NCBI RefSeq assembly: GCF_026130545.1
Contig: NZ_JAMOIM010000026.1
Location: 1-64,000, forward strand
Length of the DNA: 64,000 nucleotides
DNA from: Lichenifustis flavocetrariae
GTDB lineage: Bacteria; Pseudomonadota; Alphaproteobacteria; Rhizobiales; Beijerinckiaceae
Reading direction: 5' to 3'
The notes under the pieces were generated by a model. It was not told where the DNA came from and did no database searches. It worked only from the letters and a program-made list of their open reading frames with translations. Shown one piece after another: positions 56,925 through 62,383 of the stretch (its first letter is position 1; each line of letters opens with the position of its first letter). The translations under genes and the position numbers were made by a program.

Positions 56925-57412
56925 TCATGCCCTTGCGGTAGCGATCAGGTCCGGCACCCCGACCAGGGTGATAGTCCGCCGGATGTTGTAGGCGAGCGCC
57001 GTCAGGCTGAACTCGCCACGCACGTTTTCCAGCCGCCGCATCAGGAAGGCACCTTGCCCCATCCATTGTTTGATGGTGCCGAACGGATGCTCGACGGTCT
57101 CGCGCCGGCGATCGAGGATGTCGGGGCTGTCCGGCTTCAGGTGCCGCAACAGCCAGATCACCTCGACGTTGCGATGGGTTTCGGCCTCCAGGCGCCGGCT
57201 CGACCGGACCCGGTTCAGATAGCCGTAGACGTACAGCTTCAGCAGGTCGGCCGGATCGTAGCCGGGGCGTCCCGTCGCCTTCGGCAGGACACGGGCGAAC
57301 CACGCTGCCGCAAGATCCAGCCCGTCGACAAAGGCCTCGATGAACCGGACCGGATTGTCCGTTCCGACATAGTCGTCCACCGCTTCCGGCAGAAGCAGCA
57401 TGGGATTGGGAT
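56925..57412 (-). pseudogene. IS1182-family transposase with internal deletion, cut by IS3 copy
   Basis: Reads MLLLPEAVDDYVGTDNPVRF, then FARVLPKATGRPGYDPADLL and VEVIWLLRHLKPD. It then jumps directly to SPDILDRRRETVEHPFGTIK, and ends with FLMRRLENVRGEFSLTALAY. The middle of the protein, which carries most of the DDE catalytic region, is missing without a frame change. The 5' end is interrupted at 57412 by the IS3-family element. The copy cannot be active. Confidence 0.75.
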
Positions 57413-57460
57413 TGCCCCGGTTTGGTGGACACCCTGAAGCTTTTGCCAAAGGTGTTCCCG

Positions 57461-57784
57461 ATGCCCAAGACGCGCGCGGCGTATTCGCCTGAGTTTCGTC
57501 GTCAGATGATCGATCTTGTTCGTGCAGGTCGCGATCCTGATGATCTTGCCCGAGAGTTCGAGCCGACCGGGCAGTCGATCCGCAATTGGACCGCGGCGCC
57601 GGACCGACAAGAGAGTCGGCGGGAAGAGGTGGTGCCTGCTCTGGGCGTGGCCGAGCGGGACGAACTGGTTCGGCTGCGGCGGGAGACTAAGCAGCCCCGC
57701 GTCGAGCGGGACATCCTGTCAAAAGCCGCGGCCTGGTTTGCACGGGAGACCGGGACGCTCCCGTCCGGCTCTTCCGGTTCATGA
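57461..57784 (+). CDS. IS3-family transposase OrfA
   Basis: A 107-residue helix-turn-helix protein: AYSPEFRRQMIDLVRAGRDP, then LAREFEPTGQSIRNW, then the leucine-zipper-like RDELVRLRRETKQPRVERDI. It is the DNA-binding part of an IS3-type transposase. Its TGA overlaps the ATG of orfB (ATGA). Isolated OrfA proteins can bind the inverted repeats and inhibit transposition, so it may be translated although the element is dead. Confidence 0.75.
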   Translation: MPKTRAAYSPEFRRQMIDLVRAGRDPDDLAREFEPTGQSIRNWTAAPDRQESRREEVVPALGVAERDELVRLRRETKQPRVERDILSKAAAWFARETGTLPSGSSGS

Positions 57785-57786
57785 GC

Positions 57787-57840
57787 GGAGCCAGCTTGAG
57801 GCTCCGGCCAGCGAAGCTGGTTGGAGAAGCTGGCGGAGAG
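57787..57840 (+). repeat. palindromic element copy 1 (54 nt, in frame)
   Basis: Inserted between codons 2 and 3 of orfB. Outer arms GCCAGCTT/AAGCTGGC and inner arms CCAGC/GCTGG around GAA are perfectly complementary, framed by GGAG and CGGAG. It adds 18 codons (GASLRLRPAKLVGEAGGE) without a stop or frame change. Confidence 0.8.
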
Positions 57841-57888
57841 GCGAACCAGGCCTGCTTCCCGGTTGCCGCCATGGCGCGCGTGCTCGGC

Positions 57889-57942
57889 GGAGCCTGCCAG
57901 GGCCCACGCCAAGCGTAGCTTGGTGGGGTGGCAGGCGGAGGT
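57889..57942 (+). repeat. palindromic element copy 2 (54 nt)
   Basis: Inserted after the VLG codons of orfB. Outer arms are GCCTGCCA/TGGCAGGC and inner arms CCAAGC/GCTTGG around GTA, all perfectly paired. The length keeps the frame, but the loop base change creates a TAG codon. Confidence 0.8.
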
Positions 57943-58154
57943 GTGTCCAAGGCGGGCTACTATGCCTGGCGGCAAAGGCCGCCGTCTCGCCACGCGGTTG
58001 CCGATGCGGCCTTGCTGAAGCGGGTCAGGACCGTGCACGGCAGTTCGCGCCAGACGTACGGCGCACACGTGTTCACGCCGATCTCCAGGGCCTGGGCGAG
58101 CGCCATGGCCGCAAACGGATTGCGCGTTTGATGCGAGAAGCCGGGCTCGTGGGC

Positions 58155-58206
58155 GGAGCAGCCAGAGGCTCCGGCATGCGAAGCATGTTGGAGTGGCTGC
58201 GGAGGG
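58155..58206 (+). repeat. palindromic element copy 3 (52 nt)
   Basis: Follows the codons for LMREAGLVG. Outer arms are GCAGCCA/TGGCTGC and inner arms CATGC/GCATG around GAA. Compared with copies 1, 2 and 4, each outer arm is one base shorter, so pairing is kept while the length falls to 52. Confidence 0.75.
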
Positions 58207-58320
58207 GCCAGCCACAGGCGTGGGCGGCCCGATCACGACGCTGCGGGACACGGAGGCCCGACCCGCGCCGGATCTGGTCGACCGCAACTTCACGGCTTCC
58301 GGGCCAAACCAGCTCTGGGC

Positions 58321-58374
58321 GGAGCCTGCCAGAGGCTCCGCGCGGCGAAGCCGTGTGGAGTGGCAGGCGGAGGG
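58321..58374 (+). repeat. palindromic element copy 4 (54 nt) at a deletion junction
   Basis: Lies between the NQLW and VGDAYDN codons of orfB, exactly where the catalytic middle of the gene is missing. Outer arms are GCCTGCCA/TGGCAGGC and the inner stem is CGCGGC/GCCGTG (one G-T pair) around GAA. It is open in the OrfB frame. Confidence 0.8.
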
Positions 58375-58908
58375 CCGGTGGGCGATGCCTATGACAACGC
58401 CATGGCCGAGAGCTTCTTCTCGACGCTCGAAGCCGAACTGCTGAAGCGGCGGCGGTTCGCTTCCCAGGCGGAGGCCCGAATGGCCTGCTTCAGCTACATC
58501 GAGGGATGGTCCAATCCGATCCGCCTGCATTCGGGTCTAGGTTACCGCTCACCCGTCGCCTATGAAGCCGAAGCAGAAGTGGCCATGAACGACCCCTAAT
58601 CCCCAAGCCTGAAAACCGTCCACCGAAACCGGGCAACCTCAGTCTCGCCATCCGGGCGCGCCAACCTTTACAAGCACTTGTGCTGATCGGCTGTCGAAGC
58701 TTTGTGCTCGTACGGAAAAAACACGGAATACTGGTCTCTGATCAGCTGCGATGTGTCGAGGGTTTTCGGTCGCGCAAACATTTCACGCGCTCGGCCCGGC
58801 CGCGCTTTCGGTGCCCGCTCGCCCGGCTTGCTGCGCGGAGAAGCCGATGCTCGTGCTCAGCTTCCAGCATTGGCCGGAGCCTTCTGAGAGCCAAACCAGC
58901 GCCAGTTC

Positions 58909-59781
58909 TCACTCACCAGGTTTGCAGAGGACGGCCGTGAACTCGTTTTTATGGAACGCCGTCTGGTAGACGCGCTCCACAACCAGGTCGATCAAGCCTT
59001 TCCGGTGCAGCGCCGCCATCACGGCCCGAAAGCTGTCGGGCGTAAACTGCCAAGCATGCACGTCGACGTAGCCACCTGCCGCCGCCTCGAACTCTTTCAA
59101 AGCGGCGTTGGTCCTGGGCAACACGCTCTCCCAGTGTGTGTCATCGAGATGATCGCCTGCCCAATGCCGGCTGGTGTCGTTGTGGGTTGTGAATGCGCGA
59201 TGTTCGATCACGCTCAGAAGCTTGTGCACGGTGGCACCGCGGGCCTCGATGATATCTGCAACGCTGCTCTCCGGAATGAGGGCATCGAAGCAAAAGCGCT
59301 TGTCGGGAACGACAAGATAGTAGCGCCCGCCAGCCTTGAGAACGTTGGCCACCGCTTTGAGATGTCGGATCAGGTCGGGCTGATGTTCAACGCAATGCGA
59401 ACTGACCACGGCCGTGAACCGACGATCAACGATCGAAAGGTCGCCGACCGGCGAGACCCAATCGATGGCCGGAACGCGATCTGGATCAAGACCGATGCGC
59501 TCGGCCCGTGCCTTCAGATCGTCTTGGCTTAGGACATCGAAGTATGAGACGTGCGGCCCGGTGACGACGGGCTTGCCGAAAGGACCGATCTCAAGGATTG
59601 AAGTTTCCTCCGACAGGAAAGGGATGAAGTTCTCCCGGATCGCGAGCCGAGATCCTAGTCGACCTTCCCGTATTCCAAACTGATGCCAGTGATCTTCAGC
59701 CGTGGTCCGGTCCATATGCTGTAGATCGGGGTAGCTTTTCCGATAGAAATCGGCGTCGAACTCGGGGTCGAGGGAGTTCAT
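58909..59781 (-). CDS. SAM-dependent methyltransferase domain protein
   Basis: About 290 residues. The first 60 residues (DADFYRKSYPDLQHM, then HWHQFGIREGR) are a short repeat region often found at the N-terminus of glycan-related enzymes. The methyltransferase core follows: ETSILEIGPFGKPVV (motif I), VSSHCVEHQPDLIRHLKAV and VLKAGGRYYLVVPDKRFCFD. The start is the ATG before NSLDPEFDADF; the longer frame upstream is not homologous. It stands alone among IS remnants. The N-terminal segment links it functionally to the glycan genes far to the left, from which it may have been separated. The acceptor is unknown. Confidence 0.75.
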   Translation of the reverse strand: MNSLDPEFDADFYRKSYPDLQHMDRTTAEDHWHQFGIREGRLGSRLAIRENFIPFLSEETSILEIGPFGKPVVTGPHVSYFDVLSQDDLKARAERIGLDPDRVPAIDWVSPVGDLSIVDRRFTAVVSSHCVEHQPDLIRHLKAVANVLKAGGRYYLVVPDKRFCFDALIPESSVADIIEARGATVHKLLSVIEHRAFTTHNDTSRHWAGDHLDDTHWESVLPRTNAALKEFEAAAGGYVDVHAWQFTPDSFRAVMAALHRKGLIDLVVERVYQTAFHKNEFTAVLCKPGE

Positions 59782-59866
59782 CCAATCGCCTCTCAAACAG
59801 CATAAAATGAAAAGCTCGCTTACTTCCTTGCTGTGAGTCAACACGGTCGACACAGGAGGTGAACCG

Positions 59867-60199
59867 ATGCAACACCTCGGCTTGGGCCGCGCCGAGCGAA
59901 TCTTGTGCGACTCCTCGGCATGTGCCCCTTTATTCGCGAGATCAGGATCGGCGACCGGCGCGATCCGCGTTTTCACCGACCTTCAGGCAAGAACATGGAG
60001 CGCCCCGACTGATTTTGCACGCACCGTGACGGAATCGCGGCAGCACGCACCAAGGGAAAGCTGCTGGGTGCACCCCTCGACGGCGCACTCGACCCGTCTA
60101 CCGGGAGATGAAACGCTGAGGAGTCGCTTGACCAGCGCCACTGAGCTGGTCAGCAACACCAAGCGTGAACGCCTTGTCCCAGCAGGAGTCAGCAGATGA
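59867..60199 (+). CDS. hypothetical 110-residue ORF with strong ribosome binding site
   Basis: AGGAGGTGAACCG directly precedes the ATG, giving a near-perfect ribosome binding site at ideal spacing. The stop overlaps the start of the arginase-family gene (ATGA). Both signals favour real translation. The sequence itself is Ser/Thr/Arg-rich, has no recognised domain and could be a leader peptide-like ORF or chance coding. Confidence 0.4.
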   Translation: MQHLGLGRAERILCDSSACAPLFARSGSATGAIRVFTDLQARTWSAPTDFARTVTESRQHAPRESCWVHPSTAHSTRLPGDETLRSRLTSATELVSNTKRERLVPAGVSR

Positions 60200-61053
60200 A
60201 AATTACGATCTACGCTGGCAACGCGGGCGATCGGAACGATCGAGGAATGCGCGGTGCCGTTGACCTCGGTTCAGCGATCGCCGAACGTTGTGGCGTGCCG
60301 GCACGAACCGTCGCCGCAACGGTAAAGCCGATCGAAGGCGGATGGGCAGAGCAGTTGCAGGCTGCCGCTCCCAACCTACGGTTGCTTGCTCAGCGGGTGG
60401 TCGAGCGTCTCGACGCGGGAGAGCCCATGGTCATCACCATGGGCCGCTGCGCGGCCAGTATCGCCACGCTGCCGCTTGTCGCGCGGCGCTTTCCTGATGC
60501 GGCCATCGTCTATTTCGACGCCCACGGCGACTGTAACGTGCCGGTCGAAGATCGCGTCACCGACTACCTTGGAGGCATGGTCATCTCGGGCGCCGCAGGC
60601 GAATGGGATACTGGATTTGGCCAGGACGTTGATCTTACCAACGTAATCCTCGTTGGTGCTCGCGACCTCGATCCACCGGAACAAGTCCGCATCGATAGCG
60701 GTCAGATCAGGCTGGTGCCGGTGGGACCCCGATTGGGAGCCAGACTGAAGAACGCCATTGGTGGCCGCCGCGTTTACGTGCACTTCGACTGTGACGTGCT
60801 GGACGCGGGCTTGCTGGCAACCGAGTATCAGGTTCCTGGCGGGCTTCAGTGGATCGATCTTCTCGACGCTTTCGAAATCCTTGCAGCGCATGAGCTGCTG
60901 GGGCTGGAAATCACCGAATACGAAGCATCTTGGCCGGGGGGCAAGCCCACCGATCCATCCCAGTTGCTCTCTGCCATGCAACCCGTCCTGGCCGTGCTTC
61001 AATCACGCCGTTTTGGGAACTCCTCGGCAGAATCAGCGCCTTGCCCTCCATGA
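60196..61053 (+). CDS. arginase/ureohydrolase-family protein with altered metal site
   Basis: A 285-residue alpha/beta protein of the arginase-agmatinase-formiminoglutamase superfamily. The second motif FDAHGD (Asp108, His110, Asp112) and the third HFDCDVLDAG (Asp198, Asp200) are present. The first motif, normally GGDHS with a manganese-binding His, reads GRCAAS (83-88) with no His. A complete binuclear site is therefore doubtful, and the natural substrate may differ (guanidino or formimino compounds) or activity may be lost. AGGAG lies seven bases before the ATG. It is possibly coupled to the 110-residue ORF upstream. IS remnants follow. Confidence 0.8.
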   Translation: MKITIYAGNAGDRNDRGMRGAVDLGSAIAERCGVPARTVAATVKPIEGGWAEQLQAAAPNLRLLAQRVVERLDAGEPMVITMGRCAASIATLPLVARRFPDAAIVYFDAHGDCNVPVEDRVTDYLGGMVISGAAGEWDTGFGQDVDLTNVILVGARDLDPPEQVRIDSGQIRLVPVGPRLGARLKNAIGGRRVYVHFDCDVLDAGLLATEYQVPGGLQWIDLLDAFEILAAHELLGLEITEYEASWPGGKPTDPSQLLSAMQPVLAVLQSRRFGNSSAESAPCPP

Positions 61054-61274
61054 TCCGAAGGACGCCAAAGCACTCGCCCCAACGCTGTTTCTGCTCGGTA
61101 TTTGAAGTTCGACGGATCGCCATACTGACGCATAAGTCGCCGAAGCTCATACCTCGTAGTTCGGCTGCTGGGTCATCGTTGGACCCTGATCCTCCCCCAT
61201 CGAAGTGGTCCGTCCTGATGTATGGCTTTTGAGCCTGAGCGAGGACGGATGAGATGCCGAGGAAGAGACACAAC

Positions 61275-61324
61275 CCTCCGCCAGCTTCTCCAGCAGGCAA
61301 GCCTGCCGGAGCCTTGTAACTCCT
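61275..61324 (-). repeat. palindromic element, inverted diverged copy
   Basis: On the minus strand: GGAG, TTACAA, GGCTCC, inner arms GCAGGC/GCCTGC around TT, GGAG, AAGCTGGC, GGAGGG. The inner stem is intact, but the left outer arm no longer pairs. About 50 nt, inserted after the eighth codon of the IS3 orfA. Confidence 0.6.
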
Positions 61325-61455
61325 TCACCAGCCGACGCGCTTCTCGCTAGAGTGCAAATCGGTTGCTGGGAGAGGGTCGCCGCAGGAGCCATGAGGGCCT
61401 CGTGTGTGCGGCGATTGGTCGGCATCGCTCGACGTAACGCAAGACGCCGCGGGGC

Positions 61456-61508
61456 GGAGTGGCCAGGGCCCACGGCCTGCGAAGCAGGACGGGGTGGCAC
61501 ACGGAGGG
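61456..61508 (+). repeat. palindromic element copy (53 nt) in the second IS3 remnant
   Basis: GGAG, outer arm TGGCCA, CCCACGG, inner arms CCTGC/GCAGG around GAA, GGGG, outer arm TGGCAC, CGGAGGG. One base shorter than the 54-nt copies. The OrfB reading frame changes across it by exactly that one base. Confidence 0.7.
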
Positions 61509-61792
61509 CAGGAAGACGAAGAAGCGCTAACCGCTGACATCCTCGAGTTTGCGAGACAATACGGCCGATACGGCTATCGCAAGATCGGCGCTCTGTTGCG
61601 CGATGCGGGCTGGCTGGTGAACGACAGGCGGATCGAGCGGGTCTAGCGGTGCTAGGGGTCTAAGGTGCCGGCCAAGCAGCCGAAGAAGGGACGCCTGTGG
61701 CTCGATGACGGCTCCTGCGTCCGTCTTCGGCCCCAGCACCGTGATCATGTCTGGTCGTATGACTTTGCCGAGGATCGCACACATGACGGAGG

Positions 61793-62383
61793 AAGGCCGC
61801 TTCCCAAAACGATTTCCGCCAAACTGCAGGTCAGCGGCGTTCAGGGCACCATAAAACTTCCGGCGCCATCACGACTGTCCCGGACGGCTTCATTCCTGGA
61901 CGAGAGGGCGTATGACGCCTATCGTAATCCCGCTTGCACAGTACGCAGGACATTCGCGGAGCTTAATGGTTCACGACATTCAAGCAGCCAGTTCCGCCTT
62001 GTTGCCAGAGACTGCGAGATGAGCGCGATCACGCACGGGGTAGATTGGGCTTGGACGTCGCTTGCCACCTCCAAGACCTGGTGGCCAACCCTGCCAACGA
62101 TGACCGGCGTGCTCGTGGCCAATCGCGAAGACCGCAATGGAGGCATGCGTCATCGGAGCGGGGACTTTGGGCAATAATATCGAGGACGCTCCCTTATCCC
62201 TCCGTACCTCATCGGCCCCCGATGGCAAGTCTTGAAAATCCGCGACGACGTTCCCGTGGGTCTGTTGTCAGCGCGCGCCAGAGAAGAAGCTTGCCCGAAT
62301 GACTGCACGTCGGGGCCGACGACGACCCTCACTATGCCGTTCACCACGTCTGAGCTGCTCGCAAGGATCGGTTCGATGTCTGC
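61793..62383. other. non-coding or unrecognised interval
   Basis: About 590 nt between the IS3 remnant and the histidine kinase gene. Open frames on both strands are short, overlap each other and match no family. The right part may hold the kinase promoter; no convincing boxes were seen. Confidence 0.4.

Follow-up and report, generated by a model that had tools for sequence, protein, structure and literature searches.

Small palindromes lying inside genes are known from the Rickettsia palindromic elements (RPEs) and the CGTC repeats, and GTAG as well as CGTC repeats have been recorded within genes; according to parts of the papers that deal with them, the CGTC families belong mostly to the Alphaproteobacteria and have no associated transposase (PMC3733652; PMC10969869). 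The mechanism of the IS200/IS605 insertion sequences (ISs), as outlined in part of PMC6006769, involves a hairpin at either end with a guide tetranucleotide at its foot, and a target tetranucleotide that flanks the left end. The elements described here come from a window of 64,000 nucleotides (nt), positions 1 to 64,000 of contig NZ_JAMOIM010000026.1 of Lichenifustis flavocetrariae, and are hairpins of usually 54 nt that insert precisely 3' of the tetranucleotide GGGC, in this genome mostly within transposase genes. An earlier note on this DNA, made from its letters alone, had described six copies in two IS3 transposase genes, likened them to the palindromic elements of Rickettsia and suggested a mini-element family mobilised by a transposase acting on hairpins. 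The copies and their hosts are listed below, scores being those of R2, a covariance model built partly from the window copies.

c1, 57787-57840, + strand: element copy of 54 nt, GGAG...GGAGAG, with target GAGC at 57783-57786
c2, 57889-57942, + strand: element copy of 54 nt, GGAG...GGAGGT, with target CGGC at 57885-57888 and a TAG in the frame of the host
c3, 58155-58206, + strand: element copy of 52 nt, its outer stem one pair shorter, with target GGGC at 58151-58154
c4, 58321-58374, + strand: element copy of 54 nt, preceded by GGGC at 58317-58320
c5, 61456-61508, + strand: element copy of 53 nt in the second IS3-type relic, with target GGGC at 61452-61455; an HTH_21 match adjoins (locus L049)
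61274-61328, - strand: decayed copy in inverted orientation, close to where the second IS3-type relic starts, 25.4 bits, E 0.01
57422-58600 (limits approximate), + strand: host of c1-c4, a broken IS3-family transposase relic with HTH_Tnp_1 and rve_3 matches
61252-61640 (limits approximate), + strand: host of c5 and the inverted copy, a second IS3-type transposase relic with an HTH_21 match, read by eye

The five direct copies were confirmed at the positions first given for them and score 63-80 bits (E <=6.7e-10). In their common fold an 8-bp outer stem is followed by an 11-bp inner stem, with a bulge of 3-4 nt between them that is confined to the 5' side, and the inner stem is closed by a 3-nt loop, which reads GAA in c1, c3, c4 and c5, as had been claimed for all copies, but GTA in c2. 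The inverted sixth copy, placed at 61275, has a relative at 61274-61328; this is however decayed, with a broken 5' arm, and stands outside the match list of R1, a covariance model built from the first 10 copies. Its flank resembles that of copy L083 elsewhere in the genome. A search of Rfam 15 gave no match up to E 1 in the part of the window from 57000 to 62000.

Evidence for insertion is provided by copies of the host sequences that are empty at the corresponding sites. Contigs C92 and C96 each contain a close copy of the first IS3 relic; c1 is present in all three, c2 is missing from the C96 copy and c3 is missing from both. An IS3 on a Roseomonas mucosa plasmid, which covers 83% of the 57422-58600 stretch with 79.9% identity, is without c1, c2 and c3 and shows gaps of 54, 54 and 52 nt in their place. 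For other loci, 31 pairs of joined flanks were searched against this genome and 21 empty/filled pairs from 13 loci were aligned; the largest gap is 54 nt in 18 pairs, 55 nt in one and 53 nt in one, and L128 aligned in pieces. The aligner places the gap exactly after GGGC or GAGC in 10 pairs and a few letters off in the others, where letters are repeated or the empty copy differs. The host peptide picks up exactly past the insert, as in TKTGQLW[insert]YARDDRPW (L001), YLKVAGWG[insert]WFYLSTVL and RPDHVW[insert]MDITYIP. Insertion is precise, usually of 54 nt, and without target-site duplication, none being seen at the in-genome empty/filled pairs, at the C92 and C96 copies or in the R. mucosa IS3.

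The flanks of the fourth copy map to positions 982-1020 and 1279-1317 of the R. mucosa IS3 (L085), about 258 nt apart, and the intervening stretch is gone in the window; c4 is read as the product of a recombination between two elements that deleted the stretch between them, as neighbouring copies may do. A comparable arrangement is observed in genome G005, where an element (L071, 1501-1557) lies at the joint of a nucleoside hydrolase stretch and an IS transposase, and here too, a correct assembly provided, two elements seem to have recombined.

The unit and its target were defined on 56 sites, 12 of 68 rows being left out as duplicates, homologous sites or decayed copies (L070 and L073 are weak or decayed, and L158 is out). 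The four letters 5' of the element are GGGC at 46 of these sites, GAGC and CGGC at three each, and a different tetranucleotide at each of the other four. Of the 56 elements, 39 start with GGAG, 10 with GAAG, four with GGAA, one with GTAG and two with other letters; 38 have GGAGGG as their end, and 48 have a length of 54 nt. The element spans GGAG to GGAGGG and inserts on either strand, directly 3' of GGGC and less often of GAGC or CGGC. The GC that was said always to precede the first GGAG is present in the direct copies, but because the four preceding letters are GGGC at 46 of 56 sites it is assigned to the target and not to the element. Beyond the tetranucleotide the strongest bias is a T at -5 (23/56). 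The end of the element and its target seem to match in several cases, a GAG end occurring with GAGC (the L036 family, L059) and a GGT end with YGGC (c2, L148/L156), with L037, L055, L052, L046/L047 and L030 as exceptions; inserts in phase 0 begin GGA and end GGA GGG. In L060 (genome G004, 1501-1556) both GGAG boxes are altered, with a GGCG start and an AGCGGG end, which hints that the ends may be read together.

A search of this genome (7.52 Mb) with R1 yielded 41 matches, including by construction the ten copies behind the model, with a best E of 5.6e-14 and a weakest of 1.5e-4. Six of these rows (L033, L034, L035, L040, L047, L081) are repeats, in related IS copies, of an insertion or site represented by another row, and merging them by hand leaves 35 loci; L033 contains the whole element as in L032, but only 165 of 240 upstream letters are shared and it may be a separate event. 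Copies that differ by 2-4 letters occur in unrelated flanks both within and between genomes (L153/L061, L150/L146, L146/L042, L067/L048); L146 and L042, for example, differ in 3 of 54 element letters and share 20 of 60 flank letters, the mean over all pairs being 18.9. Since near-identical copies sit at unrelated sites in different genomes, it is concluded that the elements move, and there is little doubt that they do so as site-specific elements. In genome G145 an identical 54-nt element is found in the same codon of two IS copies (L148/L156) whose flanks are only 63-77% identical; either this site was hit twice or the element was passed on by conversion.

The folding of the element is conserved via paired changes. 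In the first 10 copies the paired share of stem cells is 95.7%, two-sided changes are found in 8 of the 19 pairs and the covariation score amounts to 0.368. No shuffle out of 500 equalled any of these three values; 87 of the 500 reached the number of further pair types. In a set of 50 distinct copies, taken from several genomes, this share is 90.3% and 15 of 19 pairs have two-sided changes, a number that one of 500 shuffles reached; the covariation score amounts to 0.498, compared to a shuffle mean of 0.161 and to at most 0.113 in controls with slid partners; these figures are not probabilities, because the rows share ancestry and the 50-copy alignment was fitted to the structure. The mispaired cells favour the GGAG strand, with 67 G-T/T-G against 19 A-C/C-A (35 against 18 without the conserved G-T column) and 44 G-A/A-G against 5 C-T/T-C; mispairs tolerable in a folded GGAG strand outnumber their complements. 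The compensatory changes in the arms that the earlier note had pointed out are therefore borne out on both sets, and so is its dispersed family, with 35 merged loci in this genome and further carriers in the same taxonomic family; the copies are neither limited to the window nor part of the ancestral IS3 sequence.

The two IS3 subgroups named as hosts are too narrow a range, as many kinds of transposase and other sites are hit. Pfam searches, for which reading stretches were chosen by codon score, or by eye where score and eye disagreed, detect transposase-type domains at 22 of the 35 loci (rve and HTH types, IS66, Y2_Tnp, DDE_3, DDE_5, Transposase_mut, DDE_Tnp_1_4, DDE_Tnp_1 and Mu-transpos_C_2). 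Three more bring this to 25, as L036 lies in the same IS3, L079 is a paralogue of L044 and a Y2_Tnp remnant adjoins L058; L054 and L083 are transposase-like by eye only. The remaining eight lie elsewhere (L052, L055, L057, L074 with an adjoining DUF7146, two in L076, L077 with an adjoining GGDEF, and L082). In other genomes a transposase Pfam match is found at 10 of the 25 loci looked at, L069 being left out. At L074 (G000:C21, near 1501-1556) a frame of 383 amino acids across the joined flanks stays open through the element and is antisense to it. At L055, L076 and L082 (C180, C111) a second short intergenic repeat (GGGAGAAGGT...GGATGAGGG) recurs beside several elements, some of which seem to be inserted in the repeat.

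Among 32 transposase stretches matched by Pfam, four of them (L050, L053, L150, L155) with scores under Pfam's own cut-off, 26 have the element in the sense orientation. The same stretches contain GGGC in 145 places, 78 of them on the coding strand, which gives an expected share of 0.538 (p 0.002); merging related sites leaves 21 against 6 (p 0.012). Reading frames were placed by eye at 22 sites, frames from the longest open reading frames having been dropped as unreliable because antisense ones often won, and the phase of insertion is not used as evidence. Ten inserts are open and in frame (L036, which is c1, L030, L037, L033, L001, L053, L056, L078, L080, L148), seven contain a stop (L041, which is c2, L039, L042, L044, L054, L146, L149) and five have a length that is not a multiple of three (L043, which is c3, L049, which is c5, L038, L051, L062).

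The element is known from one family of soil and methane-oxidising bacteria. R2 detects it in 18 of 397 genomes of the Beijerinckiaceae, the source genome included, distributed over 6 of 43 genera, and in none of 384 other genomes drawn from the class (the source genome being the sole match among 385); as E 1e-4 was applied to 14 candidates per genome these counts are lower bounds, the source genome itself showing 14 matches there and 41 with R1. R1 finds it in 9 of 100 relatives, again with the source genome, and in none of the 40 among them that belong to other families of the order. Named carriers obtained by a pattern scan and checked with R1 are Methylocapsa aurea KYG (76 bits), a member of the Beijerinckiaceae in the NCBI taxonomy, and Methylocella tundrae isolate 2 (63 bits); the KYG locus and one in genome G270 of the same family have identical flanks over 250 nt on each side. 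A pattern scan of GTDB contigs gave 28 stretches, four of which are supported by R1, and virus contigs gave one stretch of 21.4 bits. A blastn search with c4 against plasmids and phages returned no match.

It is proposed that these are non-autonomous mobile elements of about 54 nt, each a single two-tier hairpin, which are joined to their targets as single-stranded DNA, a reading to which a probability of about 0.5 is assigned. Much as in the HUH type of single-strand transposition known from IS200/IS605, the GGAG strand would act as a single-stranded hairpin; GGGC would be cut and an enzyme supplied in trans would join the hairpin to its 3' side, so that the target tetranucleotide stays outside the element, 5' of it; the HUH-like step by itself is tentative, falling slightly short of an even chance. 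Several findings weigh against this proposal. The element has a single hairpin where IS200/IS605 elements have two hairpin ends, no pairing scheme was found between the GGAG foot and GGGC, and single-strand targeting alone does not explain the sense bias in transposase genes (26/32). The joined flanks of L032 are one letter short of the empty copy, and the empty copies of L117 and L124 carry other letters at the target. Furthermore, no enzyme of the expected kind tracks the element when 18 carriers are compared with 18 non-carriers, which are genomes without a listed match and not matched by genus: Y1_Tnp occurs in 5 carriers and 3 non-carriers (Fisher p 0.69) and Y2_Tnp in 8 and 3 (p 0.15).

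An unlikely alternative, and the main rival because of the sense bias, is that the moving form is RNA: a hairpin RNA would be joined into an mRNA at GGGC in a manner resembling reverse splicing, or would prime on DNA, and would be reverse-transcribed and returned to the genome. The bias towards the coding strand, the insertion without duplication and the G-U pair that is commonest at one stem position (32/50 copies) all agree with such a route, as does RVT_1, with matches in 12 carriers and 7 non-carriers out of 18 each (Fisher p 0.18; the carriers G198 and G277 are below the family cut-off); however, 6 of 18 carriers are without an RVT_1 match, several copies such as L055 and L061 seem intergenic, Rfam has no match, and the bias could stem from exposure of the coding strand during transcription or from survival. 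A stricter version, a retro-inserting 54-nt RNA stem-loop that enters transposase mRNAs at GGGC by intron-like reverse splicing without an intron body and returns via a reverse transcriptase, with no dedicated transposase, is improbable. So is the notion that the host directs the insertions into transposase genes in order to disable mobile DNA. It would account for the 25 of 35 merged loci here, assigned by Pfam, linkage or paralogy, and the 10 of 25 in other genomes, assigned by Pfam, but relics of transposases tolerate insertions and would give the same picture, GGGC at 12 per kb on both strands of the window supplies sites anywhere, and 8 of the 35 loci lie elsewhere.

Classical repetitive extragenic palindromes (REPs) or their paired form, REPINs, moved by a cognate REP-associated tyrosine transposase (RAYT, a Y1 transposase) of the same genome, would likewise be small palindromes with a tetranucleotide at the 5' foot, and REPs inside genes are on record in the part of PMC3733652 that concerns them. 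This origin is nonetheless very improbable, as the foot of the element is GGAG or one of its variants and not GT[AG]G and the sole Y1 gene of the genome is flanked by different hairpins, as judged by eye:

L084 (G000:C101), 1471-2988: IS200/IS605-type tnpA-tnpB pair by eye, the sole Y1_Tnp match in the genome, with end hairpins that look different from the element

Within the genus, two of the 6 genomes have a Y1_Tnp match, and one of these two is without a detected element; none of Y1_Tnp, Y2_Tnp and RVT_1 occurs in more than 12 of the 18 carriers. A co-occurring TnpA or RAYT, which the earlier note had proposed to look for, is not supported because 13 of 18 carriers are without any Y1_Tnp match. 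That the palindromes never moved at all, being ancestral IS sequence or chance palindromes of GC-rich DNA, would fit the fact that GC-rich look-alikes are common, 24 of the 28 pattern-scan stretches reaching at most 26.6 bits with R1 or being unscored. The empty sites, the E-values down to 5.6e-14 and the near-identical copies at unrelated sites reduce its chances to almost nil, and for c1-c3 it is refuted by the R. mucosa IS3 that is without them.

Among the neighbours of the copies in the window, positions 60196-61053 between the two IS relics contain a full-length reading frame for what looks by eye like an arginase-type enzyme.

How very small palindromes enter genes is an open question for the Rickettsia elements, to judge from parts of the work on them. 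The fixed unit, the GGGC target, the paired empty and filled sites within one genome, the orientation data and the several carriers make this question testable with one reporter, and form a clean data set on which to decide between single-stranded DNA and RNA as the form that moves; they suggest that a mobile element may be little more than one hairpin. A literature search of titles and abstracts, with most subscription journals outside it, found no description of such an element, and the repeats in PMC3794950, PMC5082802 and PMC7285482 are, as far as portions of these papers tell, other repeats.

Two further kinds of element are not supported. For a shortened copy of an IS200/IS605 element of the genome, the sole tnpA/tnpB locus has other hairpins by eye; a miniature inverted-repeat transposable element (MITE) would call for the terminal inverted repeats of a parent IS and for a target-site duplication, and no duplication is seen at the empty and filled sites, the parent IS not having been searched for systematically. 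IS200/IS605 transposition is not known to produce a target duplication, and the insertions described here likewise lie 3' of a fixed short target and are without duplication. Cyanobacterial small dispersed repeats are also very small insertions, some of them in coding DNA; they are shorter and belong to another phylum. A fixed tetranucleotide that flanks the left end and recognition of a hairpin are further features shared with IS200/IS605, as far as the relevant part of PMC6006769 describes them, whereas the element here has one hairpin in place of two ends, no transposase gene inside and no evident guide pairing. The GC clusters of yeast mitochondria (GC42) are also tiny hairpin-forming inserts with constrained stems and an unsettled mobiliser, but differ, according to part of PMC4478555, in flanking short direct repeats that are read as target duplications and in lying mostly between genes. 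The bypassed inserts of Magnusiomyces capitatus, in the account given in part of PMC5009743, are again tiny hairpin-forming inserts and lie in coding DNA. Ribosome bypassing between the matched GGA codons of phase-0 inserts was considered for the element here, but there is no evidence for it, no test aimed at it having been made. The likeness to Rickettsia palindromic elements and CGTC repeats holds in kind, both being small in-gene palindromes in the parts of PMC3733652 and PMC10969869 that treat them, but the element here has a GGAG tag and not CGTC (RPE-4, RPE-6), a two-tier stem of about 54 nt, a GGGC target with empty sites and mostly transposase hosts, and the frame is not kept as a rule (10/22), 12 of 22 inserts bringing a stop or a frameshift. 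With REPs and REPINs it shares the short dispersed hairpin and the tetranucleotide at the 5' foot, and it differs from them in a foot other than GT[AG]G, in having no RAYT that tracks it, in loci mostly within transposase genes and in its precise insertion at GGGC. Overall, the family differs from the known kinds in its tag, its target and its hosts, and is distinct from REPs with RAYTs, from MITEs and from RPEs alike.

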